From Methanomicrobiales archaeon (lineage in GTDB: Archaea; Halobacteriota; Methanomicrobia; Methanomicrobiales; JACTUA01): DNA of 64,000 bases. Every line of letters starts with the position of its first letter. The first letter of the stretch is position 1. Location of the stretch: NCBI GenBank assembly GCA_015660865.1, contig JACTUA010000002.1, positions 124,548 through 188,547 of the forward strand, read 5' to 3'. Positions 3,944 through 37,732 of this stretch are shown in pieces. The translations under genes and the position numbers were made by a program. The notes under the pieces were generated by a model. The model was not told the origin of the DNA and searched no databases. It worked only from the letters and a program-made list of their open reading frames with translations.

Positions 3944-4930
3944 TCACTTCTCGACGATTGTCTCCTTCACCGCTACCCCGAAGTGGCGCCCGGCCTCGGC
4001 GGTCGCCCCCAGCACGCGGTCCCCAACCTTCAGTGCCGCAACGGAGATGGGTTTCCCGTCCTCCCCGACAAGACGGACCGTCTCGGCGTTCTGGAGGATG
4101 AGGCTCGCGCGCCTGCCGGCCCCCTCGGCTTCAACGAGGAGGAGAGGCCTCTTCTCGATCTTGGTCCTCCCCACGCAGGCCTCGGTGACCTGCCCCCCAG
4201 CCGAGACGAGGGCGACCCGCTCGGAGACCGCGATCTCGGAGAGGTACGCGGTCTTCCCGCCGGGCATCAGGGCGTAGGCATGGACGGCTCCTGCATTCAC
4301 CCGGAAGGGGCGCGGGGCGACGTACGGGTTCTCCTGGGTCTCGGCCTGGACGAGGAGGAAGGCCGAGGAGGTGTTCCCAACGAGGATACCCTGCCCCTCC
4401 TCCATCATGGTGCAGGTGTCGACACAGACACGGTCGCCCATCCCCACCGGACGAATCGCCGTGATGGTGAACGGAACAAGATCAACCGTCCCGGTTCCCT
4501 CCTTGAGGAGCCTTCCCACATCGCGGATGACCGAGGGATCGCTGGTCTTGAGGAGGACACCCCTGACACCCTTCTCCAGCGCCCCGAGCGCGAGCTCCGC
4601 CTCCTTCCGGTTCCCCACCGCGGCGATGACCCGCTCGGCCCTCGATACCAGGTTCTCCAGGGGGATGACCGTCCAGTCCGGGGTTCTCACGATCACATAC
4701 CCTTCCCTGCTCATCCGGACGGCTTTCTCCTCCGAAGGCCGGTCCTGCACCTCGATCTCGAATACGTCCTTACCGGGCACCAGGTCGCCGTCCGGGGCAA
4801 CGGTCGTCACCCTGCCGAGCTCCCTCACCCGTGCCGCATCCTCTACGACGAGGATGTCGGCGCCGCTCTCGATGGCGGCCGTTGCCAGATCCTTTCTCCA
4901 GGGACGGACGTCGACCCAGAGCTCCTTCAT
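3944..4930 (-). CDS. 3-dehydroquinate synthase II (archaeal AroB')
   Basis: Archaeal-type enzyme that oxidatively deaminates and cyclises 2-amino-3,7-dideoxy-D-threo-hept-6-ulosonate to 3-dehydroquinate, replacing the DAHP/AroB start of the shikimate pathway. The 328-residue protein begins [11 protein letters not shown] and contains the family segments VGMGDRVCVDTC, GILVGNTSSA, and NPYVAPRPFRVNAGAVHAY. Its start overlaps the preceding ADH synthase stop by four bases, so the two enzymes of this archaeal entry route are translationally coupled. The family is known in euryarchaea, including methanogens. No DAHP synthase or classical AroB is visible in the window. Confidence 0.95.
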   Translation of the reverse strand: MKELWVDVRPWRKDLATAAIESGADILVVEDAARVRELGRVTTVAPDGDLVPGKDVFEIEVQDRPSEEKAVRMSREGYVIVRTPDWTVIPLENLVSRAERVIAAVGNRKEAELALGALEKGVRGVLLKTSDPSVIRDVGRLLKEGTGTVDLVPFTITAIRPVGMGDRVCVDTCTMMEEGQGILVGNTSSAFLLVQAETQENPYVAPRPFRVNAGAVHAYALMPGGKTAYLSEIAVSERVALVSAGGQVTEACVGRTKIEKRPLLLVEAEGAGRRASLILQNAETVRLVGEDGKPISVAALKVGDRVLGATAEAGRHFGVAVKETIVEK

Positions 4931-5709
4931 AGCATCTCCATTGCCTCGTCCGGGTCAAGGTTCTTGTGGACGACCCTTGAAATGGCCTGGACGAAGAGGG
5001 TGGTGTTCTTCCTCTGGAAGGCGTTCCTCCCCATGCAGACCCCTGCACCGCCGGCTTCTACCGAATCCCGGATGACCTTCAGCGTCTCGAGGTTCCCGGC
5101 CTTCTCCCCGCCCGCGATCATGACCGGTACCGAGCAGGCCGAGACGATCTTTGCAAATGACTTTGAATCGCCCGGGTAGTTGGTCTTGATGAAATCGGCT
5201 CCGAGTTCTTCTGCGACCCGGACACAGTGACCGATGGCAGAGGGCGAGTTGCCGTCCACGTTCTTTCCCCTGGGATAGATCATGATGAGCAGGGGGATCC
5301 CCCAGTGCATACAGGCCCTGGAGATATCCCCGGCGGACTCGATCATCCGCGACTCGTTGGGCGCACCCAGGTTCACGTGGATCGAGACCGCGTCGGCACC
5401 GAGGGCGATCGCCTCCTCGACCGTGCAGACGATCACCTTGTCGTTCGGGTCGGGGTTCATGCTCGTGGACCCCGAGAGGTGGACGATGAGCCCGATGTCC
5501 TTCCCGTGCTTCCGGTGGCCGGCCTTCACCATCCCCTTGTGGAGGATGATCGCATTCGCCCCTCCCTTCGCTACGGCGGTGATGACCTCGGTCATGTTCG
5601 TGAGCCCCTCGATCTGTCCCAGGGAGAACCCGTGGTCCATCGGGATGATGACGCTCCTCCCCGTGTTCCTGTTGATGATCCGTTCGATCCGGATCTCCTT
5701 TCCAATCAT
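4927..5709 (-). CDS. 2-amino-3,7-dideoxy-D-threo-hept-6-ulosonate (ADH) synthase
   Basis: Class I aldolase-like enzyme (DeoC/FbaB/LsrF fold) expected to condense 6-deoxy-5-ketofructose 1-phosphate with aspartate semialdehyde at the start of archaeal aromatic synthesis. Visible motifs are PMDHGFSLG (residues 23-31), [21 protein letters not shown] with the conserved Tyr, and FIKTNYPG with the Schiff-base Lys, plus the phosphate-binding GG and GRN loops. The length of 260 is typical. It overlaps the neighbouring paralogue and the DHQS II gene by four bases each. The aspartate semialdehyde substrate is made by asd, found elsewhere in this window. Confidence 0.9.
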
Positions 5710-6524
5710 AGCTTCTTTCCTCCTTTCTCCTTCTCAGCTTTGATGATCTCAAGTGCCTCTTCAACACTTCGTCTCCCGTGCACAATGGCAGCTGCGGCCC
5801 GGACAAACCGGTCCGGGGCAGGGTGCTGGAAGGCGTTCCGGCCGATGGAGATACCGGCCGCACCCCCTTCCATGGCCCCTGCGATCAGCTCGAGGGTGAC
5901 CCGCTCGTCGGTCTTCGAGCCGCCGGCCACGACCACCGGGACCGGGCAGCCCCGGGTCACCTCCCGAAAGCTCTCCGGGCTCCCCGTGTACACGGTCTTC
6001 ACGAGGTCGGCCCCGAGCTCTGCCGCGACCCGGGCGGCGAGGGCCACGTGCTCCACCCCGTGCTCGTCCTTGATCTTCGCACCCCTCGGGTACATCATCG
6101 CGAGGAGGGGCATCCCCCACTCCATGCACTCGACGGCGAGGTTCCCCAGGTCCTGGAGCATCCTCGTCTCGGACTCCGCACCGATGTTCACGTGGATGGA
6201 GACCCCGTCGGCCCCCATCTTCAGCGCATTCTGGACCGTGTTCACGAGCACCTTCTCGTTCGGGTCAGGCGCAAGAGACGTCGAGCCCGAGAGGTGGAGG
6301 ATGAGCCCCACGTCCGGCCCGCGCCGGCGGTGGCCGTAGAGGGCGAGGCCCAGGTGGCCAAGCACGGCGTTTGCGCCGCCCTCTGCGACGAGTTCAACGG
6401 TACGGCCCATGTCGATGAGCCCTTTCATGGGGCCGTTCGTGACCCCGTGGTCCATGGGGACGATGATGGTCTTCCCCGTGTTCCGGTCCATGATTCTTTC
6501 CAGACGGATCTCTTTTCCTCTCAT
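5706..6524 (-). CDS. ADH synthase paralogue (DhnA/FbaB-type aldolase)
   Basis: First gene of the aromatic operon and a tandem paralogue of the next one. The aldolase motifs are retained: [30 protein letters not shown], and LVKTVYTG with the Schiff-base Lys, so it is probably active. It differs around residues 58-68, where this copy has [12 protein letters not shown] and the other [12 protein letters not shown]. Methanocaldococcus has two such aldolases, one making the sugar precursor DKFP and one ADH, so this copy could be the DKFP-forming partner; that is inference. An in-frame GTG lies one codon upstream, but the ATG at 6524 has a strong GGGGGAGGT ribosome site five bases before it. A Lys-rich tail ends the protein. 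Confidence 0.85.
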
Positions 6525-8636: not shown

Positions 8637-9521
8637 TCATACATTCACGTTGAGAAGGACACGGACAAGGATCCCCATGAGGAAGGAGAGGGCTGCGACG
8701 CCCAGGCTGATGGCTGCCATCTCCAGGAAGCGGCCGCGGAAGTCCAGATCCCGGGTCACCGAGGTGTAGAAGGTGAAGACGACGATGACGATGATGGCGT
8801 TCAGGATGGTGACGGCGAGGGCGAGGTAGAAGCTGGAGAAGACCAGGTACGGGGCAACCAGGAAGATGACCGTGATGATGTAAGCGACGAGGGTGTACGT
8901 CGCGGCATGGACGGGGTTCCTCCCCTCGCCCTCGGACTTGGTGGAGAGGTACTCTGCCGAGCCCATCGAGAGGGCTGCCGCGATGCCGGTGATGAGCCCG
9001 GCCATGGCGATGACCCTCGTGTTCTGGAAGGCGAGCGTGAGCCCTGCGAGGGTCCCGGTGAGCTCAACGAGGGCGTCGTTCAGGCCGAGGACGATGGATC
9101 CCGTGTACCTGAGACGCTCTTCGTCGATCAGGGCGATGAGGGCCTTCTCGTGCTGCTCCTCATCGAGGAGCACCTTCTCGAGACCGGGAACGACCTGGAG
9201 GAGGTCCTGGTAGACCTTCTGGGCCCTCTTCTCACCCCGCTCCATGAACTTGAGGGTGAAGGTTATCCCGAATATCCGGTACACCAGCAGGTAGAAGGCA
9301 ATCCTGATCCGGTCCGGGGTGAGGTCGATGCCGGTGAGGGACCGAAAGAACCGGTAATGAGCCTGCTCCACGGCGGCAGTCTCCTCGAGGACCTTCCGGT
9401 TCCCGGACTCCGACACCTTCATGGCGAGAGCTTTGTAGATCTCGTGCTCTGTGATCTCGCCTCTCTGTGAGGCGAGGATGGTATCCCGTGCCTCTTCGGG
9501 GATGGCCTTCTCCAGGGTCAT
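8637..9521 (-). CDS. Ferritin-like domain fused to VIT1/CCC1-type iron/manganese transporter
   Basis: Predicted membrane iron exporter or sequestration protein (MbfA/VIT1 family). Residues about 1-140 are a rubrerythrin-like helical domain with metal ligands such as EITEHEIY, ETAAVEQAHY and DEEQHEKAL. Residues about 145-294 are the VIT1 membrane domain with GLNDALVELTG and GSAEYLSTKSE near the cytoplasmic side, followed by three further hydrophobic segments. The in-frame GTG three codons upstream is possible, but the ATG at 9521 has AGGTG five bases before it. It lies downstream of the restriction-modification region but on the other strand. The ferritin domain would sense or oxidise Fe(II) before transport; that is family knowledge. 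Confidence 0.88.
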   Translation of the reverse strand: MTLEKAIPEEARDTILASQRGEITEHEIYKALAMKVSESGNRKVLEETAAVEQAHYRFFRSLTGIDLTPDRIRIAFYLLVYRIFGITFTLKFMERGEKRAQKVYQDLLQVVPGLEKVLLDEEQHEKALIALIDEERLRYTGSIVLGLNDALVELTGTLAGLTLAFQNTRVIAMAGLITGIAAALSMGSAEYLSTKSEGEGRNPVHAATYTLVAYIITVIFLVAPYLVFSSFYLALAVTILNAIIVIVVFTFYTSVTRDLDFRGRFLEMAAISLGVAALSFLMGILVRVLLNVNV

Positions 9522-9682
9522 TACCAACACCTAAGAACGTGTCACGATAAAAGGGTGGATCATACGTGCCTCAAGTATCACGCCAGATACGTTCACTGTC
9601 CTTGCCGACATCATTTAAAATGCCAAAACGTTATCAAGATAACATATGGAAGCATAACAAGATTCAACCGATCCCCCACCTT

Positions 9683-10624
9683 ATGGCCAGGCAATTAAGA
9701 TCAATTCCTGAAGGAAAGCCGTTCTTGAAATGGGCAGGTGGAAAAACCCAATTACTTCCCGAGTTCGATAAACGGTTTCCCACAGAATTGAAACAAAAAA
9801 AACTCACTAAGTATGTCGAACCATTTATTGGAGGCGGCGCCGTATATTTTTATGTTAATCAAAAATATTCCTTTAAACACTGCTATATCTGCGATATCAA
9901 TGAAGAATTAATACTCTCATATCTTGTGATAAAAAAGTCTGTAAATAAGCTGATTGAAAATCTTGACGCACTTAAATCAGATTACGTATCGAAAGGAGAT
10001 GAGAGTCGCAAGCAACTGTATTATCATATTCGAGATGTATTCAATCAAAAAAAATCTGAGATCGATTTTCACAAATTTCAACCGGCCTGGATTGAACGAG
10101 CCGCCCAACTTATTTTTCTCAACAGAACGTGCTATAATGGGCTGTTTAGAGTAAATCAAAAAGGAGAATTCAACGTCCCTTTTGGTAAATACAAGAATCC
10201 AGAAATTCTAAATGAGACTAATCTGAAGCAGGATGCCAAAATATTACAAATGACAGAGATCATTTTGGGTGATTTTACACAATTTAAAAAGTTTGTTGAT
10301 AAAAATACATTCGTTTATCTGGATCCTCCCTACCGCCCACTTAATGTTACGTCCTCATTCACATCCTATTCAAGGGATGGATTCTCGGATGATGATCAAA
10401 AACGTCTTGCAAAATTCTTTAGAGAACTTGACAAATTAGGCGCAAAAGTATTACTCAGTAATTCTGATCCAAAGAACGAGAATCCTTACGATACATTTTT
10501 TGAGGATTTGTATTCAGACTACACGATTGAGCGCGTACCAGCTAAACGAAGCATTAATTGCGTTGGTTCTGGTCGTGGAGAAATTAACGAATTAATTATC
10601 ACTAATTATCGTCGTAAGATCTGA
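9683..10624 (+). CDS. DNA adenine methyltransferase, D12 class (type II modification)
   Basis: N6-adenine DNA methylase of the Dam/DpnM (D12) class, probably protecting the host from the adjoining nuclease. Motif I FLKWAGGKTQLLP lies near residues 14-26, YVEPFIGGGAVYF near 53, and the catalytic DPPYRP in the second half. A TATA-like TTTAAAAT at 9613-9620 would start transcripts near 9645, so I prefer the ATG at 9683 (MARQLRS) over in-frame starts at 9566 or 9620; this gives 313 residues. Base composition is much more AT-rich than the flanks, and it is followed seven bases later by the restriction gene, both signs of acquisition as a unit. The recognition sequence cannot be read from the protein. 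Confidence 0.9.
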   Translation: MARQLRSIPEGKPFLKWAGGKTQLLPEFDKRFPTELKQKKLTKYVEPFIGGGAVYFYVNQKYSFKHCYICDINEELILSYLVIKKSVNKLIENLDALKSDYVSKGDESRKQLYYHIRDVFNQKKSEIDFHKFQPAWIERAAQLIFLNRTCYNGLFRVNQKGEFNVPFGKYKNPEILNETNLKQDAKILQMTEIILGDFTQFKKFVDKNTFVYLDPPYRPLNVTSSFTSYSRDGFSDDDQKRLAKFFRELDKLGAKVLLSNSDPKNENPYDTFFEDLYSDYTIERVPAKRSINCVGSGRGEINELIITNYRRKI

Positions 10625-10631
10625 TTGGCAT

Positions 10632-11966
10632 ATGTCGCAAAATGATGAAGCATGGGAAAAAATCTTCGAACGTCTCCCTCTTCTTGCTGATATTGAGCAA
10701 CAAGGCTTTGTCTATATAACCGCTGATGATTTAAAACGGACGAGCGATGGTAGGGAACCGCGTCTCCTTGCCAAAATGGATACTAAAAACCTTAGGCCGG
10801 GAATTTTCAAACGGCATACATTATCGATTCTCCCCGTTGAAAACGGGAAATACATAATATTCAAAGATAAATTGTCTAAGACCTACTATTCCCTCGGACA
10901 TTTATTTTCTAGAATTAGCCCTGAAGAGTATCGTCCCACGCGGGATTTTGGTGAATATCAGAGTCTAGATATTCAGAATATTTCTTCCGAATCTCAGGCA
11001 ATAGACTATGCAAATCTGATATCGCTCCTTAAAACTTTTACCAATGAACGTGAATTAAATCTCACTATTCGTGGGAGACAACGCTCCGAATCGTTCCCAA
11101 TCAAAATCCCCATAGATCATCACACGGTTCAAGTCTCGGGTGTTCAGATTGAAGTTGATGCAGGTTATGAAAGTCCAGAAAAAATCTATCTTTTTGAAGT
11201 AAAAATGGGACGGATTGAAGATTTCAATATCCGGCAACTCTATTATCCTTTTAAAAACTGGTCATGCAAATCATTGAAGGAAATTGTTCCTTTATTTTTC
11301 TTCTATACCAACGGTCTCTTCTATATCCTTCAGTTCTCCTTCGGGAAAGAATATGGTGACCTGCATTTTGTCCAAGGTAAGTGCTTCACTGTCAACGAAC
11401 CCATAAAACAACAGATAAATTTGCACAAACTTTTTCTATCGACCAATGTTGAATTCGAACCAGATGTCCCCTATCCTCAGGCGAATGACCTTGATAAGGT
11501 CATCGATATTGTTATTAATTTTTCAAAAGGGCTAACGACTAAAGCCGCCATTTCAGAATTTTTCGAATTTGATGAGCGACAAGGCGACTATTATGCAAAT
11601 GCTGCAATTTATCTCGGTTTCCTTGAAAGGCGGCGACCTGCGTCATCAGCATTTCAACTCACGAGAGAAGGAGAATATATCACTAGTTCGCAAAATCGAT
11701 CCCAAAGAAATCTTTTATTATTGAAACAAATTTTAAAGAAACCGAGTTTTAATGAAATTGTCAGTTTATTTATGGATCAACACTTTGATTTGCCAGCTTT
11801 AAAAATTGAAATAATTTCATCAATCATCCGTCGTTATGTTTCACTAAATCATACAACTGCCCGGAGGAGATCTTCGACAGTATTGAGTTGGTTAAAATGG
11901 TTAGAATTTAATATGGATTTTTCACTAAATCCAAATCCATCACCTCACATCACAGAGAAAAATTAA
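10632..11966 (+). CDS. Type II restriction endonuclease-like protein (PD-(D/E)xK)
   Basis: Probable partner nuclease of the upstream D12 methylase. Near residues 174-198 the sequence IEVDAGYE, then after a short gap FEVKMG, fits the D-x(n)-ExK catalytic core of PD-(D/E)xK nucleases. The C-terminal third (GLTTKAAISEFFEFDERQGDYYANAAIYLG and following) resembles a winged-helix DNA-binding segment. It is 444 residues and AT-rich like the methylase. The gene begins seven bases after the methylase stop. No membrane or signal segment is present. The family name and cut site are not recognisable by eye, and it could instead be an R-M accessory protein, though the ExK core argues for the nuclease. Confidence 0.75.
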   Translation: MSQNDEAWEKIFERLPLLADIEQQGFVYITADDLKRTSDGREPRLLAKMDTKNLRPGIFKRHTLSILPVENGKYIIFKDKLSKTYYSLGHLFSRISPEEYRPTRDFGEYQSLDIQNISSESQAIDYANLISLLKTFTNERELNLTIRGRQRSESFPIKIPIDHHTVQVSGVQIEVDAGYESPEKIYLFEVKMGRIEDFNIRQLYYPFKNWSCKSLKEIVPLFFFYTNGLFYILQFSFGKEYGDLHFVQGKCFTVNEPIKQQINLHKLFLSTNVEFEPDVPYPQANDLDKVIDIVINFSKGLTTKAAISEFFEFDERQGDYYANAAIYLGFLERRRPASSAFQLTREGEYITSSQNRSQRNLLLLKQILKKPSFNEIVSLFMDQHFDLPALKIEIISSIIRRYVSLNHTTARRRSSTVLSWLKWLEFNMDFSLNPNPSPHITEKN

Positions 11967-12056
11967 TTAAGAATTATTATTCAAATCTCATTCAACAAAC
12001 AAATATATATATTTTGACATAAAATAATCCATTACCAAACCCTGCTTGACAAGCGA

Positions 12057-12066
12057 AAAGTTAAAC
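12057..12066 (+). promoter_or_regulatory. TATA box of the hybrid sensor gene, leaderless start
   Basis: AAAAGTTAAA is centred 25 bases before the ATG at 12087, so the transcript should begin at or near the start codon, with no ribosome site visible. The stretch 11967-12056 is AT-rich spacer with a second TATA-like run at 12000-12014. Confidence 0.4.
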
Positions 12067-12086
12067 TTGGTTCATCTGGTCATTCG

Positions 12087-14048
12087 ATGGCGCAAGAACC
12101 TCTGGACGGGGGGCCAGCGTTCCCGGCCCCGAAGATCGCAGTCCTCTACGTCGATGACGAACCTGCCCTCCTCGAACTCAGCACGCTCTTCCTCGGCCGG
12201 AACAGGGATTTTGCCATCGACACCGCCCTCTCGGCGAAGCTCGCGCTGGAGAAGCTCCGGCTGCACCCGTACGATGTCATTGTTGCAGATTACCTGATGC
12301 CCGAGATGGACGGAATCGAGTTCCTGAAGGGACTCAGGACAGCGGGCTGCACCATCCCCTTCATCATCTTCACGGGGAAGGGCAGGGAGGACGTCGCCAT
12401 CGAGGCCCTCAACTCAGGTGCCGACTTCTACCTCCAGAAGGGGGGGGACCCCAGGTCCCAGTTCGCAGAACTGGCGAACATGATCCGGCAGGCCGCCCAC
12501 AAGCGGCGGGCCGAGGAGGCCCTCCGCGAGAGCGAGCAGCAGCTCCATGCCATCCTCCAGGGCTCCCCCATCCCTCAGATCGTCATAGACCACGACCATC
12601 GTGTCGTCCACTGGAACCGGGCCATGGAACAGTACTTCGGCATACCCGCCCAGGAGATGATCGGGACAACCCAGCAATGGAGAGCCTTCTACACCTGCGA
12701 GCGGCCATGCCTCGCCGATCTCATCGTCGACGGAAGGATCGACGAGATCCCCCGCTGGTATCCCGGCAAGTTCGCCAGTTCCCGTCACATCGAGGGTGCC
12801 TTCGAGGTCACGGACTTCTTCCCGAAGATGGGGGAGCACGGGAAATGGTTCTTCTTCACCGCTGTTGCCATCCATGACAGGTCCGGGAAGACGATCGGTG
12901 CCCTCGAGACCCTCGAGGATATCACCGAGCAGGTAGAGGCAGAGACGAACCTCACCGAGAGGGCCGGCGAGATCGAGGAGGCCCATGCCCAGCTCGAGGC
13001 CATCTTCCAGGCATTCCCCGATGTGTACCTCAGGTTCGACTGCGACGGGACCATCCTGGACCTCAGGACCCGGGACCCGTCCTCGGTCTTCCTGGCCTAT
13101 GATCAGCTCCTCACGCGGAAGGTCAGGGATCTCCTCGCGCCCGGGGAAGGGACACTTGTGGAGGAGACGATCCGTGATGTCCACCTGAGCGGGAAGATGC
13201 AGATCATCGAGTTCACCCAGGAGATCGAGGGTTCCCGGCGTTCCTTCGAGGGGAGGTTCATCCCCCTTCTCGGTTCCCAGGTCATCGGCATCTTCCGGGA
13301 CATCACCGACCGGAAGGTGGGCGAGACGGCCCTCAGGCAGGCGAACACGAAGCTCCAGCTCCTCTCGGGCATCACGCGCCATGATATCCTGAACGCCCTC
13401 ACGGCCCTCTCGGCGTATCAGCAGCTTGCCATGGAGGCCTCGGCCGATCCCCTCATGCTCACCTACCTGGAGAAGCAGCACGGGATAACCCGACAGATAC
13501 ACACCCTCGTCGAGTTTACCCGGTTCTACCAGAAGATCGGGGTCACGGAACCCACCTGGCAGGATGTCCAGGAGATCCTCACCCGTGTCGTCCGGCAGCT
13601 CGATACGCAGGGGATCCCGGTGGTTTTTGATCTCCAGGGGATCGAGGTCTATGCCGATCCCCTGCTCGAGCGGGTATTCTCCAACCTCATCGAGAACGCG
13701 GTCCGGCACGGCGGGCGGGTGACCTGCATCCGCTTCGGGCACGACGAGAACTCCTCGGGGCTCACGGTGACCTGCGAGGATGACGGCACAGGGATTGACC
13801 CTGGCGAGAAGGAGAATATCTTCGGAAAGGGCTACGGAAAACATTCAGGCCTGGGCCTCTTTCTCGTGAGAGAGATCCTCTCCATCACCGGCCTCTCCAT
13901 CCGCGAGACCGGCGAGCAGGGCAACGGGGCGCGGTTCGAGATCTCCATCCCCCGGGGGAATTACCGGGTCTCCGGGACGCCGGGGAGGACCGTGCACGAG
14001 ACCACCCTCACGGTCGCGGACCTTCACGCTCCCCCGTCGGAACAGTGA
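12087..14048 (+). CDS. Hybrid sensor: REC-PAS-PAS-histidine kinase
   Basis: Cytoplasmic signalling protein. Residues about 17-140 are a response-regulator receiver with VLYVDDEP acidic residues, the phospho-acceptor Asp in VIVADYLMPEMDG and the conserved Lys of LQKGG. Residues about 150-275 and 300-415 are PAS domains, each followed by a linker ending DITEQ or DITDRK. Near residue 430 ITRHDILNALTAL carries the phospho-His, and residues about 530-640 form the HATPase with NLIENAVRHG, DDGTGIDPGEK and GLGLFLVREI. No transmembrane helices are seen, so it senses an internal signal, and a receiver at the N-terminus suggests a relay input. Such REC-PAS-kinase proteins are common in Methanomicrobiales. 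No cognate output regulator is adjacent. Confidence 0.9.
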   Translation: MAQEPLDGGPAFPAPKIAVLYVDDEPALLELSTLFLGRNRDFAIDTALSAKLALEKLRLHPYDVIVADYLMPEMDGIEFLKGLRTAGCTIPFIIFTGKGREDVAIEALNSGADFYLQKGGDPRSQFAELANMIRQAAHKRRAEEALRESEQQLHAILQGSPIPQIVIDHDHRVVHWNRAMEQYFGIPAQEMIGTTQQWRAFYTCERPCLADLIVDGRIDEIPRWYPGKFASSRHIEGAFEVTDFFPKMGEHGKWFFFTAVAIHDRSGKTIGALETLEDITEQVEAETNLTERAGEIEEAHAQLEAIFQAFPDVYLRFDCDGTILDLRTRDPSSVFLAYDQLLTRKVRDLLAPGEGTLVEETIRDVHLSGKMQIIEFTQEIEGSRRSFEGRFIPLLGSQVIGIFRDITDRKVGETALRQANTKLQLLSGITRHDILNALTALSAYQQLAMEASADPLMLTYLEKQHGITRQIHTLVEFTRFYQKIGVTEPTWQDVQEILTRVVRQLDTQGIPVVFDLQGIEVYADPLLERVFSNLIENAVRHGGRVTCIRFGHDENSSGLTVTCEDDGTGIDPGEKENIFGKGYGKHSGLGLFLVREILSITGLSIRETGEQGNGARFEISIPRGNYRVSGTPGRTVHETTLTVADLHAPPSEQ

Positions 14049-20634: not shown

Positions 20635-21390
20635 TTATTCCCTCTTCCTGCCCACCCAGAGAATCCCGATCCCTGCTGCTGCAATGGTGATGAAATCCGG
20701 GATCGGGATCTTCGCCACGGGCGTTTCCTGCACCGGGTTTTGCGTTGGCGTCCCGGTCTGAAGCGTAACCGGTGTCGGCGCCGGGGTCGGTTGGACCGGC
20801 GTCCCAGGTACAGGCGTAGTTGTGGCCGGCATGAGAGTGGTGTGCATCGTGGTTGGCAGGGGCAGCGGCATCATCGGTGTCGGGACCCTGCTCGGGACCC
20901 CGAGGACGACCTGGACGTCTTCGTTCGGATCTGCAGGATTTTGTGCCACAATATGAAACTGCTGGATGGCGGTGGCGGATGACGTCCGGAACAGGACGAC
21001 CCCGTACCCGCTCAGGTCGGTAGTCACCTCGGCATAATAGCTGGTTGCCGAGACAACGGACGATGTAAGGGCGACATCATCCAGAATGGTGCCACCGCCG
21101 CCGTTGATATGGGTCGATCCGATGACGTACGGCCCGCCGGGAGGGTCCTGCACGACATCCACCTGGCCCGGGACGATGATCGGCGGCTGGTCACCCGGTT
21201 CCCCTGACATGGAGTGGGTCCCCTTCAGCCAGATATCATATGGGGTTCTCAGGTTCCCTACGACCGTGACCGTGAACGTATTGCCCCGTATGAGGGAGCC
21301 GCTGCCCTGGGCCCCTGCCACCGGCACAAGGATGGGGAGCAGAAGAGTGAGCAGGAGGATCGTTCCCGCAAAGATGTATTTTCCTGGCAT
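20635..21390 (-). CDS. Secreted, membrane-anchored protein with Pro/Thr stalk (DUF3821-like)
   Basis: Cell-surface protein of unknown role. A signal peptide (LLLTLLLPILVPVAGAQG) ends near residue 28. The folded part (residues about 30-165) opens LIRGNTFTVTVVGN, the style of Methanomicrobiales DUF3821 proteins. A Pro/Thr-rich stalk runs from about 170 to 225 and is likely glycosylated. A C-terminal hydrophobic helix ends in GRKRE, so the protein is anchored with its tail inside. The gene at 25273-26289 has the same architecture. Assignment to DUF3821 is from architecture and opening motif only. Confidence 0.75.
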   Translation of the reverse strand: MPGKYIFAGTILLLTLLLPILVPVAGAQGSGSLIRGNTFTVTVVGNLRTPYDIWLKGTHSMSGEPGDQPPIIVPGQVDVVQDPPGGPYVIGSTHINGGGGTILDDVALTSSVVSATSYYAEVTTDLSGYGVVLFRTSSATAIQQFHIVAQNPADPNEDVQVVLGVPSRVPTPMMPLPLPTTMHTTLMPATTTPVPGTPVQPTPAPTPVTLQTGTPTQNPVQETPVAKIPIPDFITIAAAGIGILWVGRKRE

Positions 21391-21558
21391 CCGAAGCCCT
21401 CGCGATCTGCTGCGATCACCGGCAGGTTAAGGCGGGTTCGGGATATAAGCATGTGCCTTGCAGGTTCGGTCGCCAAGGAGGGACATACTGCATCCCGACT
21501 ATAATGGATTTCGGATAACTTTTCATGAAAAAAAGAGATTGAAGGTACTGATTGAAAC

Positions 21559-21960
21559 TCACTCTGTCGTCTTTCCAGTGAAATGTTCTTCCTTCGCCAT
21601 GGCTTCCTGCCTGGTCTTTCTCACCACCTTGTCCTGGTGCTCCGGGGGCGAGTAGATCGTGTAGAGCTTGAGGACCTTGGTCCTTGACGTATTAACGACG
21701 TTGTGTTTCGCTCCACTCGGGACCACGACACCGCTTCCGTCTTTCACCAGGTGTTTCGTGCCATCGATCACGACGACCCCTTCCCCCTCCTCGAAACGGA
21801 AGAACTGGTCGACATCATCATGGGTCTCTTCGCCGATCTCCTCTTTCGGTTTCAGGCACATCAGGACGAGCTGGCTGAATTTTCCCGTGTACAGTACCCT
21901 GCGGAAATCGGCGTTCTTCCTCGTTTCTGCCTCGAGATTTGCTGAAAAACCTTTCTTCAT
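21559..21960 (-). CDS. Cupin-domain protein
   Basis: Small single-domain cupin of 133 residues. Motif 1 is EETHDDVDQFFRFEEGEG and motif 2 SGVVVPSGAKHNVVNTS, keeping His/Glu metal ligands, so it may bind a metal and act as an enzyme or sugar/ligand-binding protein. The reading frame is open 31 codons further upstream, but the ATG at 21960 follows a GGAGG ribosome site at good spacing. Relatives are common in anaerobes and usually unassigned. It is monocistronic. Confidence 0.85.
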   Translation of the reverse strand: MKKGFSANLEAETRKNADFRRVLYTGKFSQLVLMCLKPKEEIGEETHDDVDQFFRFEEGEGVVVIDGTKHLVKDGSGVVVPSGAKHNVVNTSRTKVLKLYTIYSPPEHQDKVVRKTRQEAMAKEEHFTGKTTE

Positions 21961-22145
21961 CTCTTTGCCTCCATATAGTGCTGGCGGTAGTTCATATGAG
22001 TGGTACACTATTAATCTAACCCCGCTTTCAGGAGGATTTGTGAAAAACCGCATCCGATGGCTCGAGACGTCATGAAGGGCGCCCCGGCTGAATTTTTCAA
22101 CGCTGTAAAATGCATAGAATAAAAAATGAGATGCAGATTGTGAAT

Positions 22146-22343
22146 TCAGGGATCAATAATTGCTACCCAGGCGATAGAAATGCATCCTAAGATAACGGTT
22201 ATGATACTCAATCCATTCGGGCTGAAGAGCCACATAATCTGGAGATATTCCTCGGTCGGATATGGATTCAGATGTGCTATGAAGGGTGAATTATAGACAA
22301 AGGGCCACAAAAGCTGGAAGATTGCTACAAGGATAACAATCAA
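22146..22343 (-). CDS. Small two-helix membrane protein, start uncertain
   Basis: Hypothetical protein of about 65 residues with two hydrophobic helices, LIVILVAIFQLLWPFVY and LSIITVILGCISIAWVAII. The frame stays open for another 18 codons upstream, with a basic stretch QRNKKIAKIIA that looks like the true membrane-protein N-terminus, but this has no ATG or GTG. A TTG at 22343 is the only usual start. Either translation starts at TTG or the start has been lost. It is AT-rich, next to the equally AT-rich M48 gene. Confidence 0.4.
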   Translation of the reverse strand: MIVILVAIFQLLWPFVYNSPFIAHLNPYPTEEYLQIMWLFSPNGLSIITVILGCISIAWVAIIDP

Positions 22344-22628
22344 GGCGATTATTTTCGCAATTTTTTTATTTCTTTGTACCGTGCTACCACCTTGTTATTC
22401 AATGCATAAAGTTGGATTAATACCTTGCTCCAGATCTCAAAAAAATGAGATTCCGCTTTAGCGGCTGGGAAGATCCGTGACATCCGGCCGGGGACCTGGG
22501 CGCTGACGGTGATATCACTTCGTGTTCCTGGTGATCAGGCCGTATTGAGGTAACAGATGGGGATAAACTGTGACTATTGAAATTGATATGGTTATTGGAC
22601 AAAATCCGACATAAAAATTTCATTTAAA

Positions 22629-23483
22629 TTAAGATTCCAATTTTATTTCCTTAAAATGTTTAATTCTATCTCTGGGTAATGGATGATCGTAAAAGATTAA
22701 ATTTAATATTTGTCCATAATCTTTTTGAGACTCAAAAAATTTTTCAAAAAGAGATATTGCACCGTTGAGATTTTTGGACTTTATCAAACCAAGTTCATCC
22801 GCCTTGAATTCAAGGCGCCACGCTAAATAATTACTAATCATTATTCCAATAATGAACAAAATCAAGATTGCGATAAAGTAAACAAAGATATTTAAAATTC
22901 CAAAAAATAAAATCGCGAACCAAGTAAATATGATAATGATCTCATAAACAAACGGAAAAATGAATGGATATGCAGAATCACGTCGAGGAGTCTTTGTATG
23001 TCCTATTTCATGCGATAAGGCGAACAGCAATTCATTTCTACTGTTATTTTTTAGAAATTCGTCTCCAACATAAATATCAATAAACCCAAATGACATTTTT
23101 TTGAAAACACTCTCACCAGGGTATATTGAAATATGGATTTTATTATCTGGTAATCCCCAAAGCATTGTGATAGATTTAGTTAATTCAGCATCCAAAGTAG
23201 CAGGAGCCTTATTTTTCCATTTGAATTGTATAAAAGGGAGTAATATTGACAACTTTGCGACCAATAGATAGTAATACACTCCAGAAAGAATTGAAAGTAA
23301 AAACATGAGAAAGAGGGTATCTGAATAAAAGATTGTTCCAACTATTAAACCTTGAAAATACGAAATGATAACGAGTATTATATTTGAGCCTAAATATTCG
23401 CTATTTTTCGAATAGAACACAGAAATAACCAATAGCCCGAGAAACCCAATTAAGAGTATTATGAGAGAGGTCTCTGTAAGCAT
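22629..23483 (-). CDS. M48-family membrane metalloprotease (HtpX-like)
   Basis: Zinc protease anchored in the membrane, of the type that clears misfolded membrane proteins. Hydrophobic segments occupy residues about 5-25, 35-55 and 60-85. The catalytic HExxH is SHEIGHTK near residue 155, followed by further membrane helices, and a downstream Glu ligand is likely in RLEFKADELG. The length of 284 fits HtpX relatives. Its AT content is far above the flanking genes, and it abuts tRNA-Arg, suggesting acquisition. It is transcribed away from the tRNA on the same strand. Confidence 0.85.
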   Translation of the reverse strand: MLTETSLIILLIGFLGLLVISVFYSKNSEYLGSNIILVIISYFQGLIVGTIFYSDTLFLMFLLSILSGVYYYLLVAKLSILLPFIQFKWKNKAPATLDAELTKSITMLWGLPDNKIHISIYPGESVFKKMSFGFIDIYVGDEFLKNNSRNELLFALSHEIGHTKTPRRDSAYPFIFPFVYEIIIIFTWFAILFFGILNIFVYFIAILILFIIGIMISNYLAWRLEFKADELGLIKSKNLNGAISLFEKFFESQKDYGQILNLIFYDHPLPRDRIKHFKEIKLES

Positions 23484-23531
23484 ATTCGATCATCGCTTAA
23501 CAGTATATTAATAATGACCTGAAAAGTGGTA

Positions 23532-23603
23532 CGCCCCGGCCGGGACTTGAACCCGGGTCAAAAGCTCCGCAGGCTTCTAGGATGTCCACTACCCCACCGG
23601 GAC
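23532..23603 (-). tRNA. tRNA-Arg (anticodon GCG)
   Basis: A complete cloverleaf can be folded on the minus strand. The acceptor stem GTCCCGG/CCGGGGC has one G-U pair, with G as discriminator. The D arm includes GG at 18-19, the anticodon stem is GAAGC/GCTTT with loop CTGCGGA, and the T arm is CCGGG-TTCAAGT-CCCGG. The anticodon GCG reads CGC arginine codons, and A at position 20 suits arginine identity. There is no intron and no encoded CCA. The 3' end faces the AT-rich M48 region. Confidence 0.92.
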
Positions 23604-23783
23604 GCGAAGTAGGAAAATTTACTTTCAGAAATTGTCGTGTATCCTTAAAACGGTTGCTCATGGATCCGCCTGCCCCTGCCCGTGTCCCGATGAAGCGGCC
23701 CTCGATGGATCGCTATCGTTTCCCGCATGAGTGAGATAAGATGCATTCAACATTGGGAACAACAAAGAACCGGTGAGAAGGAC

Positions 23784-24341
23784 ATGACCGGCCGACGCTT
23801 CACCGCAGACGATCCCGATCGAAAACGTTGGCAGGACCCGGAACAGATCCTCTCCTCCATCGGCCTCAGGGAGGGGATGGTATTTGTCGACATGGGCTGC
23901 GGCGAAGGGTACTTCGCGATCCCAGCCGCACGGAGAGTGAGAAACTACGGAAAGGTGTATGCTGTCGATATCAACGCTGAGTCCGTTGCAAGGTTAGCCG
24001 CACAGGCAGAGAAGGAAGGTCTGAAGAATCTTATTTCACGGGTGGGTGAGGCAGAGAACACACGGGTCTGTGAAGGGTGTGCGGATATCGTGTTCTTCGG
24101 GATCGACCTTCACGATTTCAGGGACCCCGTCGCGGTCCTGCGGAACGCGAAATTGATGCTGGGGCCGGAAGGACGGCTCGCCGACCTCGACTGGAAGGAT
24201 GAGCCGATGGAGATGGGCCCACCTCTTGGAAAACGGTTCTCCATCGCGAAGGCGAGCCGGCTGATTGAATCAGTCGGGCTCAGGATACAAACGGTCCAGG
24301 AAGCCGGCCCCTATCATTACCTCATCGTCGCAAGCCATTGA
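23784..24341 (+). CDS. Class I SAM-dependent methyltransferase
   Basis: Rossmann-type methyltransferase with motif I FVDMGCGEGYFAIPAAR (near residues 33-49), an acidic ribose-binding VYAVDINAES, and a DIVFFGIDLHDF segment. The substrate is unknown; similar small archaeal enzymes of the UbiE type are mostly uncharacterised. The frame opens 19 codons earlier at 23727, but the ATG at 23784 has GAGAAGGA immediately upstream and matches the usual N-terminus. It is a single gene. Confidence 0.82.
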   Translation: MTGRRFTADDPDRKRWQDPEQILSSIGLREGMVFVDMGCGEGYFAIPAARRVRNYGKVYAVDINAESVARLAAQAEKEGLKNLISRVGEAENTRVCEGCADIVFFGIDLHDFRDPVAVLRNAKLMLGPEGRLADLDWKDEPMEMGPPLGKRFSIAKASRLIESVGLRIQTVQEAGPYHYLIVASH

Positions 24342-24506
24342 TAGGGCAGGCAGGATCATCTTTACCCTCTCGACCCTGAGTGTATACGGAAAAAGCAAGC
24401 CGCCGCACGGGTGGGGGATGCCATGTGAGAACTGATCACATATCTCCTGAATGTTACCCCACATTTAACCCTCCCGGCGTCCCAGATACCTGTAACAGGA
24501 CATGCC

Positions 24507-25220
24507 ATGGATACCCTGAACGTCATCAAATCGCTCGCCGAATCGCTTGGAGCCGATTATTTTGGTATCGCGGACCTGACCGAAGCTCGAAACTTCATCC
24601 TCATGCAGGGCGGGCCTGAGATAGCCCAGTACCCGACCGGGGTAACCATGGGTATCGCCCTCCTCGATCCCCTTGTGGAACTGTTGCCCGACAGGGGGAA
24701 AAACGGGGGAGGCGCCCTGTACCGGCACCATGCCTATGATGTCGTGAACGCCGCTCTCGATCAGATCGCCCTGCAGGTGGCAAATAGAATCCAGAGGGAA
24801 GGATACCGGGCATTACCGGTTGCTGCATCCCGGAGGACGGATGAGGCGCGGATCTGCGGCCCGTTCTCGCACAAACTTGCCGCTCATCTTGCCGGCCTCG
24901 GGTGGATCGGCAGGAGCTGCCTCCTCATTACCCCGGACCACGGTCCCAGGGTCCGCTGGGTGACCGTGCTCACCGATGCCCCCCTGGCAGCGACCGGTTC
25001 GCCCATGAAAAGCAGGTGCGGGAACTGCACCGAATGCGTAACCGCCTGCCCCGTACAGGCATTCACGGGGCGGGTATTCGATGAAAACGAACCCCGGGAG
25101 GCAAGGTTTGATGCACCGGCCTGCGACCATTTTTTCAGAGAGGAGGAGAAGCGGACGGGCATTGCCGTATGCGGTATGTGCCTCTGGGCCTGCCCGTTCG
25201 GACGGGTAAAACAGAAATGA
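24507..25220 (+). CDS. Epoxyqueuosine reductase-like iron-sulfur protein
   Basis: Fe-S protein of 237 residues related to the QueG family. The N-terminal two thirds carry a corrinoid/substrate-type fold with HKLAAHLAGLGWIGRSCLLI near residues 117-136. The C-terminus has two [4Fe-4S] motifs: CGNCTECVTACP and, about 40 residues later, CGMCLWACP, with a lone Cys between. It is shorter than true QueG and lacks its HEAT-repeat end, so it more likely belongs to the broad archaeal reductase-like group than to queuosine synthesis. A weak ACAGGA ribosome site precedes the ATG. Confidence 0.75.
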   Translation: MDTLNVIKSLAESLGADYFGIADLTEARNFILMQGGPEIAQYPTGVTMGIALLDPLVELLPDRGKNGGGALYRHHAYDVVNAALDQIALQVANRIQREGYRALPVAASRRTDEARICGPFSHKLAAHLAGLGWIGRSCLLITPDHGPRVRWVTVLTDAPLAATGSPMKSRCGNCTECVTACPVQAFTGRVFDENEPREARFDAPACDHFFREEEKRTGIAVCGMCLWACPFGRVKQK

Positions 25221-33951: not shown

Positions 33952-34695
33952 ATGCTCAAAGCAAGCATCGATGCAGATATCTTCAGGGAGGCTATCGAGG
34001 TCGTCTCGGCTCTCGTCACCGAGTGCCGGCTCCACACGGATGCAAACGGGATCAGGACAAGGGCTGTGGATACGGCGAACGTGGCCATGGTCTCCCTCGA
34101 CCTCGGGAAGGATGGCTTCTCGGCCTTCTCCGCGACCAAGGAGGAGATCGGCCTTGACATCACCAAGATGAAGAATATCCTCGGGATGATGAACAAGGGG
34201 GACACCCTGAACCTCCAGCTCGCCGACAGCGCCCGGAAGCTCGAGCTCTCCTTCGGGAACTACCGGTACTCCGTCACCCTCCTCGACGTAAACACCGTGA
34301 GAAAGGACCCGAACCCGCCCACCATCGAGCTCCCGGGGAAGATCGTCATCTCCGGCGAGGCCCTCTCCTCGGCCATCAAGGCCGCGAGCGTGGTGTCCGA
34401 TAAGATCGCCCTCGGCATCGATCCCAAGGGGCAGAACTTCTACATGGTGGCAGAGGGGGACACCGACCACATCCGCCTCGAGCTCGGGAAGGACCAGCTC
34501 ATCTCCATCAACCCCGTGGAGGCCCGCTCGCTCTTCTCCCTCGATTACCTGAAGGATCTGGGGAAGGTCATGGGGAGGGCGAAGGAGGTTCAGGTCTCCC
34601 TCGGGATCGACCACCCGGTGAAGTTCTCGTTCACGTTTGCCGACGGGAAGGGGTCCGTGGATTACCTCCTCGCCCCCCGCATCGAGGCTGATTGA
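33952..34695 (+). CDS. pcn: DNA polymerase sliding clamp (PCNA)
   Basis: Ring-forming clamp that tethers the replicative DNA polymerase, ligase and nucleases to DNA. The 247-residue protein opens MLKASIDADIFREAIE and has the archaeal clamp features: DTANVAMVSLDL, an interdomain connecting region around LDVNTVRKDPNPPTIELP, and the C-terminal DYLLAPRIEAD. A GGGGTGAGGA ribosome site precedes the ATG. Its stop overlaps the priL start (TGATG), so clamp and primase are co-expressed. It is the only PCNA in the window. Confidence 0.96.
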   Translation: MLKASIDADIFREAIEVVSALVTECRLHTDANGIRTRAVDTANVAMVSLDLGKDGFSAFSATKEEIGLDITKMKNILGMMNKGDTLNLQLADSARKLELSFGNYRYSVTLLDVNTVRKDPNPPTIELPGKIVISGEALSSAIKAASVVSDKIALGIDPKGQNFYMVAEGDTDHIRLELGKDQLISINPVEARSLFSLDYLKDLGKVMGRAKEVQVSLGIDHPVKFSFTFADGKGSVDYLLAPRIEAD

Positions 34696-35720
34696 TGCGG
34701 GTCCAGCTGGACAGACGAGACCTCGCAAAATATCCATTTTTGAAAGAAGCCCAGGACTGGGTCGCGGGCCGGACCGGCACCCTCGAGCAGTTCCTCTCGA
34801 CCACGTACGGGAAGATAGCCGCCCGGAACGGTGCCCGCAGGGTGATCGGCGCGATCACGGGCGAGAGCGCCGACGGGGCCGCCGGACAGTCCGAACCTGA
34901 AAGGGATGTCTTCTCCTATGCCCTCGCCCGAATCCTCGTCTCGTGCACGAAGGACCGTGCGCTCATCGACCGGCTCACCCGGTTCGAGGCGGCGAGGGCC
35001 TGGGGTTTCCTCCAGGAGGAGGATGCAGCAAAGCGGGCCTACGTGGCAGGGAGCATCGGGATCGACCCGAAGGCACGGGAGCTCCCTGTGATAGAATACG
35101 TCGAGCTCGTGCCGCAGCTCCGTGAGGACCGCTGGAGGCTCGTGAACCGGCAGATATCGAAGGGCAGGGTGAAGCTGGACGGGGATGACCTGGAGGAGCT
35201 CATCAGGGAGCGGATCCGGCATCTCCTCCAGCGGCAGCTCCCGCTCCCGGTCCCCGGTCAAATCTGCGAGACCCTCTCGCCCCTTGTTACCGATATCACC
35301 GCTTCCTACCAGGCGACCATCCTGCGCGACTTCGGGGAGGTGGAGGAGGGGGCCTTCCCCCCGTGCCTCCAGGCCCTTGTGAGCGCGATCACCGCCGGGA
35401 CGAACCTCCCCCATGCCGGCAGGTTCGCCATCACCGCGTTCCTCCACAACATCGGCATGAACCCGGTCCAGATCGTGGAGATCTTTGCCAGGGCACCGGA
35501 CTTCGACCCCGAGAAGACCCGCTACCAGGTGGAGCATATCTCGGGACGCGGGGGGACGGAGTACACCGCCCCTTCCTGCGCGACCCTGCGGACCACCGGG
35601 TTCTGCGTGAAGAAGGACAGCCTCTGTGAGCGGGTAAACCATCCCCTCTCGTACTACCGGATCAAGAAGAGGAAAGAGAAAGAACGGGAGAAGGAAAAAG
35701 AGAAGGAACCGGTCACGTGA
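34695..35720 (+). CDS. priL: DNA primase large subunit PriL
   Basis: Non-catalytic subunit of the archaeal/eukaryotic-type primase, positioning the small subunit and holding an Fe-S cluster. The N-terminal domain (about 1-190) includes DLAKYPFLKEAQDWV. The C-terminal cluster domain has Cys in LSP/FPPCLQAL, PSCATLRTTGFC and DSLC, matching the four-Cys layout of PriL. The protein ends in a Lys/Glu-rich tail. The ATG at 34695 overlaps the pcn stop; an in-frame TTG one codon earlier is less likely. It has 341 residues, normal length. The small subunit PriS is not in the window. Confidence 0.94.
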   Translation: MRVQLDRRDLAKYPFLKEAQDWVAGRTGTLEQFLSTTYGKIAARNGARRVIGAITGESADGAAGQSEPERDVFSYALARILVSCTKDRALIDRLTRFEAARAWGFLQEEDAAKRAYVAGSIGIDPKARELPVIEYVELVPQLREDRWRLVNRQISKGRVKLDGDDLEELIRERIRHLLQRQLPLPVPGQICETLSPLVTDITASYQATILRDFGEVEEGAFPPCLQALVSAITAGTNLPHAGRFAITAFLHNIGMNPVQIVEIFARAPDFDPEKTRYQVEHISGRGGTEYTAPSCATLRTTGFCVKKDSLCERVNHPLSYYRIKKRKEKEREKEKEKEPVT

Positions 35721-35761
35721 TATATTGTTAACAGTGGTATAATGTGATTACCTTGATATTT

Positions 35762-35896
35762 TTACCTGTGCTTTTTCGAGGATTCCAACTTTTTTTTCAG
35801 TCTTTCCACAAATGACACAGCGATTTTCTTTCCATAAATGACAGAGCGGTTCTTCAACCGTTTTAAAATAGTCTCCCATTCGTCTTTTGACACCAT
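35762..35896 (-). CDS. Possible 44-residue basic protein
   Basis: Tentative small gene, MVSKDEWETILKRLKNR and onward, with 13 Lys and 5 Arg in 44 residues and an amphipathic helical look. A TATA-like CTTAAACATA lies about 25 bases before the ATG, as for a leaderless gene, but no ribosome site is seen. It covers an imperfect 26-base tandem repeat (35802-35852). The rest of the gap 35721-36188 shows no better gene. It follows the HNH gene on the same strand. Confidence 0.3.
   Translation of the reverse strand: MVSKDEWETILKRLKNRSVIYGKKIAVSFVERLKKKLESSKKHR
35802..35852 (+). repeat. Imperfect 26-base tandem duplication
   Basis: CTTTCCACAAATGACACAGC at 35802-35821 recurs as CTTTCCATAAATGACAGAGC at 35828-35847, with similar bases after each unit. 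The period is 26 bases, not a multiple of three, so it would shift frame in the overlapping small gene. It lies downstream of priL and the HNH gene. Confidence 0.45.
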
Positions 35897-36188
35897 GAGG
35901 GAGAATATGTTTAAGCTTACATAAAAATTACTTCATGATGCTCTTTCATCCTCCCCGAACCCAACCCTGACATACCAGGATGATCCTCCCTCTCCTCATG
36001 GCAACCGCTTCCCTGATCCCCTGGTCTCCTGCCTGCGGATCGCTCCTCACCTCGTCCCGGGAGGATCCGGAGATATGGGAATGCGGGTATTGTTATGCGG
36101 TTTTTCCGGTCGAACGAACTGGGTAGGAATCAATAAAGGAATGCGGTAAATGGGGAAGAAGATTCGGGAAGAGACCTTCAAATGAAAA

Positions 36189-36620
36189 TTATTTTTTCTT
36201 TTTTGCTGTAGCCTTCTTGCGGGTTGTTTTTGCTTTTCTCTTCGGCTTTGTTTTTGGTTTTAATTCTTCCCGGAATTTTTTGCACCATGATACCAAGTCG
36301 TGTGTTCCCATTTGTTTATTGCACCTGCCACAGATGGGTTCCAGGTTGCTGACATTGTTACTGCCACGGCTTGCATATGCTCGCCGGTGTCCGCATGCAA
36401 AGTCATCCCTGTGAATAGTACGCTGACGACAGCAAACACAGATGCCTGTTGCACTATCGCCAAACCGCTTCTGCCAAACCTTATTCCTTGTTGCGGGGGT
36501 TATCTGCTCCCTCTTCTGTTCCTCCCCCCACATACCCTTCGGGCTGGGTAGTTTAGCCTTGAGTAGCGGAGCCTTAGGGAGTTTGACTGAGGGCAACCTT
36601 CCGAATCGAAAGTCAGGCAT
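36189..36620 (-). CDS. Small HNH endonuclease-like protein
   Basis: Predicted nuclease of 143 residues. A basic N-terminus (KLPKAPLLKAKLPSPKG) is followed by the HNH fold at about residues 55-112: CVCCRQRTIHRDDFACGHR, SNNVSNLEPICGRC and NKQMGTHD, with two CxxC zinc knuckles and the catalytic His in CGHR. The C-terminus is a Lys/Arg tract of about 25 residues, as in DNA-binding phage or mobile-element HNH proteins. It is AT-rich and lies 30 bases after the 43-residue gene. It may be a remnant of a mobile or phage region. Confidence 0.75.
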   Translation of the reverse strand: MPDFRFGRLPSVKLPKAPLLKAKLPSPKGMWGEEQKREQITPATRNKVWQKRFGDSATGICVCCRQRTIHRDDFACGHRRAYASRGSNNVSNLEPICGRCNKQMGTHDLVSWCKKFREELKPKTKPKRKAKTTRKKATAKKKK

Positions 36621-36650
36621 AATTCAAAACTATAAATCGTCTTGGGTATT

Positions 36651-36782
36651 TTACCTCTTTTTACCTTTAAGTGGAGGTCTTAATCCTAACTCTCTGTGCA
36701 TATGTTTGATAACATCTTCCCGTCCGTCACCACCAGTAAGATCCTTTCTGATCTTTCCACGAGGGGTTTTGGGGCCTGACAT
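36651..36782 (-). CDS. 43-residue basic protein upstream of the HNH gene
   Basis: Small protein MSGPKTPRGKIRKDL and onward, ending LRPPLKGKKR, with about 13 Lys/Arg residues and a central GGDGREDVIKHMHRE stretch. A TATA-like TTTTTTATATC lies about 13-25 bases before the ATG. It precedes the HNH gene on the same strand by 30 bases, so the two probably share a transcript. I do not recognise a family. It is too short for routine gene calls, and the consistent operon placement and composition support it moderately. Confidence 0.5.
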   Translation of the reverse strand: MSGPKTPRGKIRKDLTGGDGREDVIKHMHRELGLRPPLKGKKR

Positions 36783-36814
36783 GATATAGTGATATAAAAA
36801 AGCATAATAAATAA

Positions 36815-36892
36815 TTATGCAAGAATCTGTGGATTAAAGCGACTTTGCATTTGTGAGATCCCACACTCCCGGCACAACCACCCGACCGGCAC
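36815..36892 (-). pseudogene. 3' fragment of a zinc-ribbon gene
   Basis: In the minus frame beginning at 36892 the translation VPVGWLCRECGISQ, continuing to a stop at 36815, closely matches the C-terminal part of the zinc-ribbon gene at 37292-37445. The codon just before it is TAG, so the 5' part, with the first Cys pair, is absent here. The DNA match covers about 36 bases at over 80 percent. It lies on the other side of the membrane protein gene, as left by a duplication and deletion. Confidence 0.6.
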
Positions 36893-36911
36893 CTAGCTAT
36901 GTCTAATAAAT

Positions 36912-37295
36912 TCATGACCTCCTTTTTGCTTGGACCCTGAAAATTTCCGAAGTATTTTGTGTTACAACTTTACAACAAAGAATGAGCCAAAATACAAACC
37001 ACCCAACAAAAGCAATAAATTCAGGATGGACGGTATTAAAAAATGCATATAAAAAATAAAACGAGAGATCTATCGAAATATAAAATATATCCAATATAAT
37101 AAAAGATTTAACCAAACCGAATTTATTAAAGAGTTTTTGATACCGTTCATTCGTCTCTAGTATACCAAACCACTCTACTGCAATACATGTTGTGAAAGCA
37201 TCCAAAAAGCGTAGCGCGATTGTGCCAATCACTATATACAGGAAATAAAGCCTAATTGTGCCAACCACCGTATACAGGAAATAAAGACTATTCAT
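36912..37295 (-). CDS. Small membrane protein (DUF5658-like)
   Basis: A 127-residue AT-rich protein with about four hydrophobic segments. FLDAFTTCIAVEWFGILETNERYQ resembles the DUF5658-type signature of archaeal membrane proteins of unknown role. The N-terminus contains two nearly identical copies of a 12-residue unit (LYFLY-VVGTIR and LYFLY-VIGTIA), from a 36-base tandem duplication. Its ATG at 37295 overlaps the stop of the frame-corrected zinc-ribbon gene by four bases, showing an original two-gene operon. Confidence 0.65.
   Translation of the reverse strand: MNSLYFLYTVVGTIRLYFLYIVIGTIALRFLDAFTTCIAVEWFGILETNERYQKLFNKFGLVKSFIILDIFYISIDLSFYFLYAFFNTVHPEFIAFVGWFVFWLILCCKVVTQNTSEIFRVQAKRRS
37221..37292 (+). 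repeat. 36-base in-frame tandem duplication
   Basis: TGTGCCAATCACTATATACA at 37221-37240 with the following GGAAATAAAGCCTAAT recurs from 37257 as TGTGCCAACCACCGTATACA with GGAAATAAAGACTATT. The 36-base period keeps frame and adds 12 residues to the N-terminus of the membrane protein. The copies differ at a handful of positions, so the event is not very recent. Confidence 0.8.
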
Positions 37296-37445
37296 GCATC
37301 ACCAACTCGGCTGATCCCGCACTCCCGACACCACCACCCCGACCAGCACGAACCGGTACACCCCTTCTTTCTCTTCCTTGGCATAGAGCCAGACCATGCG
37401 CGATCCGCATTTAGGGTGAGGGCATGAGGGAGCTTTGACCCTCAT
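37292..37445 (-). pseudogene. Zinc-ribbon protein gene with +1 frameshift
   Basis: From the ATG at 37445 the frame reads CPHPKCGSRMVWLYAKEEKE and then YRFVLVG. At this point GGGG replaces the GGG found in the fragment at 36815-36892. Read as is, the protein ends without its second Cys pair. Removing one G restores WWCRECGIS and a stop at 37292-37294 that overlaps the next gene's ATG, as expected of the intact operon. So this is either a true disruption, phase variation, or a sequence error in a G run. The intact product would be about 51 residues with CxxxxC and CxxC pairs. Confidence 0.65.
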
Positions 37446-37546
37446 TATGTATCCATAAGTGCACGAAAAGAAAGGTTTTACGGAGCCGGATTATTATGGT
37501 GCTCTTATGGTTATCATATCATGCCACTATCAACGGTGTCTTACGG

Positions 37547-37732
37547 TCACGCAATCTTCTCCCTGATCAGGAATCCCGCGCCACTCATCAGCGCGATGTA
37601 GACGGCAATGGCAAGGACGTACGCGATCCCTTTTCCCCCCGGGATGGGGAGGGCAGGGAGGGCGATAAGGACGATGACAAAGAGCACGAGGCTTGTTATT
37701 CCGGTCGCCACATCCAGCATCCGGGCATTCAT
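37547..37732 (-). CDS. Small two-helix membrane protein
   Basis: A 61-residue protein with two clear helices, ITSLVLFVIVLIALPALPI and AYVLAIAVYIALMSGAGFLI, with a charged end REKIA. High GC like the host, unlike the preceding pocket. No ribosome site is evident. Function is unknown; the composition is that of a genuine membrane protein. It is divergent from the ThiN gene. Confidence 0.6.
   Translation of the reverse strand: MNARMLDVATGITSLVLFVIVLIALPALPIPGGKGIAYVLAIAVYIALMSGAGFLIREKIA

Follow-up and report, generated by a model that had tools for sequence, protein, structure and literature searches.

An AT-rich, probably lineage-specific accessory DNA islet between priL and its convergent neighbour in a methanogen genome

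Small zinc-finger proteins with two cysteine knuckles are well known in haloarchaea, an example being the C(P)XCG micro-proteins of Haloferax volcanii (PMC11241148, PMC6562870). Two further kinds of described system lie close to the locus presented here, namely the free-standing HNH endonucleases (PF01844 and PF14279; 4h9d, EcoKMcrA, Cas9 HNH) and the lineage-specific genomic islets that contain ORFans and pseudogenes. The locus lies in a window of 64,000 nucleotides, the whole stretch of DNA that was analysed, which corresponds to contig C9:124548-188547 of a 1.94-Mb archaeal genome (G000). With the genomic islets it shares low GC, a lack of homologues, broken genes and two intact conserved flanks, and there is no essential difference between them and the pocket of genes described below. 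The HNH protein of the pocket has the motif order of the free-standing endonucleases and is predicted to have their beta-beta-alpha core but differs from them in that its family is rare, has a Lys-rich C-terminal tail and includes one member with substituted catalytic positions. The two zinc-ribbon families, ZnR1 (CPCCG...CRYC) and ZnR2 (CPLPNCG...CRECG), are likened to the C(P)XCG micro-proteins by their size of less than 70 aa and their two cysteine knuckles; in contrast with these, they have recently expanded to multiple copies within a single methanogen genome, and many of the copies are decayed. We hold with good confidence that the pocket is a lineage-specific accessory DNA islet in the tail-to-tail junction of priL and the gene m37547, and that of its parts only the HNH protein is likely to be active. 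The islet is an ordinary, decaying one rather than a mobile or defence unit that is conserved.

The gene order of the relatives at this junction is PCNA, priL, m37547 on the opposite strand, and ThiN. In the window, the left neighbour of the islet is priL (34692-35720, plus strand; Pfam DNA_primase_lrg, 8.8e-28) and the right neighbour is m37547 (37547-37732, minus strand), a conserved small two-helix membrane gene that stands tail-to-tail with priL in 20 relatives; both lie outside the islet, and ThiN (Pfam ThiN, 1.6e-49) occupies the stretch from about 37816. In the window, 1,826 bp separate the stop codons of priL and m37547, compared with -171 to +56 bp in the 20 Methanomicrobiales genomes where the two genes could be assigned to a single locus; a negative distance denotes stop codons that overlap, by up to 171 bp. 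Relatives were sampled as one genome per species, and the extra DNA is present in none of the 20. The window therefore carries an insert between two convergent genes, neither of which is damaged. The insert spans 35721-37546, from the stop codon of priL to that of m37547, and its GC content is 43.2%, compared with 62.9% on one side and 61.6% on the other. Among the genomes compared, the nearest relative is G001, whose contig stops directly after priL.

A first-pass annotation of the window had described an AT-rich accessory pocket undergoing active change, and this description holds, given the shift in composition, the insertion absent from the 20 relatives and the duplications and lesions within it. 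The end of the pocket, placed by that annotation at 37450, moves to 37546 when the junction is compared with those of the relatives. Repeat analysis of 35721-37546 found neither a terminal inverted repeat nor a target duplication at the ends of the insert, gene-family and repeat searches of the same interval found no recombinase, transposase or terminal repeats, and Rfam detected no structured RNA in the segment.

The ORFs that had been listed as a minus-strand cluster all exist, although a plus-strand ZnR1 ORF (35998-36126) among them had been missed. When the segment is shuffled 300 times, an open frame of 144 codons, the length of the HNH gene, turns up in 10 of the versions and one of 128 codons in 30. 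ORF length alone is thus weak evidence of genes, and the claim that a gene is present rests on homology. Convincing homology is confined to the HNH gene and to both zinc-ribbon families.

The HNH gene (36189-36620, minus strand) encodes a protein of 143 aa with a Lys-rich tail, and the earlier identification of an HNH nuclease agrees with its matches to Pfam HNH and to phage HNH families. The protein scores 20.8 bits (4.2e-4) against Pfam HNH, slightly below the cut-off of 21.4, and the same profile reaches 22.9 bits on the gene in the genome search, above that cut-off; the phage HNH family phrog_2214 matches the protein at 1.7e-7. The HNH-superfamily motif with two CxxC-type knuckles is present in the order CxxC...GH...N...CxxCN. 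The window copy has H78, N92 and N101, which, going by HNH enzymes generally, we take to be the likely active-site residues. The predicted structure has a core pLDDT of 72-91, and its Foldseek matches are all HNH enzymes, the best being 4h9d. These matches are weak (E of at least 0.04, none below 0.001), and the nearest solved folds are the Geobacter HNH nickase, McrA and the Cas9 HNH domains. An IscB-like role was considered and rejected, as the NCBIfam IscB profile gives 23.9 bits and has a cut-off of 175, a score that reflects just the common HNH motif. A phage or plasmid origin was likewise rejected for the HNH gene and for the membrane gene of the pocket, with no matches in 50,697 phage and 72,556 plasmid records and the same result in a pattern scan of IMG/VR.

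Between the HNH genes of the window and G001, the differences at codon positions 1, 2 and 3 number 36, 35 and 71, respectively, and a TATA-like box (TTTATAGTTTT) upstream of the start is common to both. The excess at third positions and the common box suggest that the HNH gene is real and independently transcribed. Its product is predicted to be a metal-dependent HNH nuclease with a beta-beta-alpha-metal core that a four-cysteine zinc site would stabilise, in which the Lys-rich tail would confer non-specific DNA affinity. Such a protein would probably nick or cut DNA, encoded by a free-standing gene with its own TATA-box promoter and no partnership with its present neighbours.

The HNH family occurs in five of the 232 genomes of the order, the window genome included, and scanning GTDB contigs reveals one more homologue, in a Naiadarchaeum. 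A small protein next to the Naiadarchaeum homologue (L108 1785-2099; HDFKV...REIK) looks restriction-nuclease-like by eye. In each of the other four genomes of the order, the HNH homologue occupies a different locus with unrelated surroundings. The G001 locus has tRNA-Glu and a gene that by eye looks elongation-factor-like, the G077 locus a DDE transposase, and the G024 locus transposase-like ORFs (by eye); in G083, a Cas1 C-terminal fragment adjoins the gene, and Fic, TIR and integrase genes lie in the same stretch. None of the other pocket members (the 43-aa ORF p43, the membrane ORF, ZnR1 and ZnR2) is found at these four loci. Most of the HNH relatives appear, from the genes around them, to lie near transposases, an integrase or a tRNA, and the HNH gene was probably spread by mobile DNA. 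A casposon origin, suggested by the Cas1 fragment of G083, was rejected, as no Cas1 was seen at any other HNH locus. That fragment is the C-terminal domain alone (L103 4210-4866, profile positions 184-282 of 283).

The copies differ at the presumed catalytic positions. G001 has an intact ORF in which H78 is replaced by Gln and N101 by Lys, and its tail is longer, Lys/Ala-rich and similar to the histone-H1-like HC2 family (7.7e-5, below the family cut-off). Since this sister copy lacks two presumed catalytic residues, the HNH family may not need cleavage. The HNH-fold protein might not be a nuclease at all but a nucleoid-type protein that binds DNA and has a histone-H1-like tail, and an intact frame under selection despite the two substitutions, together with the HC2-like tail, is consistent with such a role. 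This explanation is nevertheless unlikely, as the His and Asn are kept in the window copy and in the remaining homologues, and low-complexity Lys/Ala tails easily match HC2.

The zinc-ribbon sequences of the islet belong to repeated families. The ZnR1 copy (35943-36126, plus strand) consists of a leader and the ORF at 35998-36126 and is one of a dispersed family of about 13 copies in the genome (13 protein matches, varying in preservation), with DNA identity of 77-88% for the better copies; of 40 relatives, two gave weak matches. The leader, about 50 bp long, is conserved as strongly as the coding part. ZnR2 is present in the genome and in four of 40 relatives, and its window copy (37298-37445, minus strand) is frameshifted and pseudogene-like, with tblastn against intact homologues giving two pieces in different frames (37445-37377 and 37339-37298); the shift falls at a G run (about 37337-37340). 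A remnant of a ZnR2 3' end (36848-36892, minus strand; tblastn 8e-5 to an intact genomic copy) includes a 27-bp direct repeat with 37313-37339. A frameshift and a zinc-ribbon remnant had both been noted in the first-pass annotation. Family members elsewhere in the genome are proteins of less than 70 aa with two CxxC(G) knuckles; of the pocket copies, ZnR1 has lost its first cysteine (SPACGS for CPCCGS in the alignment of copies) and ZnR2 its open frame. Another ZnR2 copy (L055 3276-3440) has an extra base in the same place as the window copy, just before TGGTGGTGT, as if copying had followed the frameshift.

ZnR1 and ZnR2 lie less than 1.5 kb apart and on opposite strands at three loci, the window, C2:179k (L053) and C1:6k (L052). 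This is the sole repeated association seen, and it formed no part of the earlier proposal. The proximity seems to exceed independent scattering, and a common preference for AT-rich islands could explain it. A convergent repeated module of ZnR1 (plus strand) and ZnR2 (minus strand) that multiplies and recombines in the genome and seeds islets, with HNH and p43 caught between its halves, would account for the three paired loci, for the conservation of the ZnR1 leader, for the direct repeats of ZnR2 3' ends that flank the membrane gene and for the alternation of accessory genes with three ZnR1 copies at C6. We consider such a module improbable, because terminal inverted repeats, target duplications and a recombinase were not found, ZnR2 is missing beside most ZnR1 copies, and a preference of both families for AT-rich islands could yield the same association. 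The broader proposal, that the module multiplies and recombines in methanogen genomes without a recombinase of its own and thereby seeds accessory islets, is more improbable still. At C2, a ZnR1 leader without its ORF runs straight into an antisense ZnR2 gene (L053 4345-4537). At C6, the genes that alternate with the three ZnR1 copies code for lipoproteins or membrane proteins (L050, G000:C6:25000-36000, at 2871-6311), and the same stretch has repeated tRNA-3'-end-like sequences (GGGTTCGAATCC...CCCCTCGCA) that could be former attachment sites of integrative elements.

The remaining ORFs of the islet are small or broken. The basic 43-aa ORF p43 (36651-36782, minus strand) is of uncertain status; it lies 30 bp upstream of the HNH gene on the same strand, so that co-transcription of the two is possible. 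Its one possible homologue is short and lies in G091 (GPKTTEGKINKAITGDGRK), none occurs with HNH, and the genomes with weak p43 matches differ from those with the HNH gene. The membrane ORF (36912-37295, minus strand; 127 aa) matches phrog_7761 at 8e-4, has no homologue in 40 relatives and carries a 36-bp tandem duplication at its start (37219-37290). Both p43 and the membrane protein are too short or too isolated to judge firmly. At 35751-35896 on the minus strand lies a broken gene fragment that had been put forward as a possible 44-residue protein; it is not an intact gene, because a 26-bp tandem duplication (35801-35851) splits the ORF over two frames. Both tandem duplications bear out those reported earlier. 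The fragment was also considered as the N-terminal end of another HNH gene, for which its CVICGK residues are suggestive; searches of 40 relatives and of plasmids gave no homologue, and the idea is kept as a lead.

The proposal of a new mobile or defence-like unit, in which the HNH nuclease, p43 and the membrane protein act jointly, for example as a nuclease plus its regulator or immunity protein, draws on the common strand, the 30-bp gap between p43 and HNH, the low GC, the pairing of a nuclease with a membrane protein and a weak PtuB match of the HNH protein (0.0025 over 20 residues), but is the least probable of the explanations, since the proteins co-occur nowhere else (HNH being present in 5 of 232 genomes, with unrelated neighbours in all four of the others), the defence-family profile search found no known defence partner family in the pocket, recombinase, transposase and terminal repeats are likewise lacking there, HNH has a conserved TATA-like box of its own, and broken genes and an opposite-strand zinc ribbon interrupt the cluster.

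The favoured reading, a lineage-specific accessory islet, sees the pocket as a mixture of copies of two repeated zinc-ribbon families, an HNH gene of a rare family that is placed differently in each genome with it, and small ORFs, several of them broken. The most likely history is that accessory DNA accreted stepwise in a neutral junction, where insertions would harm neither priL nor m37547. The junction of a conserved replication gene in a methanogen thus provides an example of the uptake and degradation of accessory DNA, and the idea that these clustered tiny genes might form a new defence unit is corrected. For the archaeal micro-protein field, the locus offers a rare family of HNH proteins, with a histone-H1-like tail and one seemingly catalytically dead member, as well as a burst of tiny zinc-ribbon genes specific to one genome. 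The window contains two further AT-rich stretches of similar size, at about 8800-12800 and 21100-24600, with an AT content like that of the pocket or higher, and such pockets are therefore not unusual for this genome.
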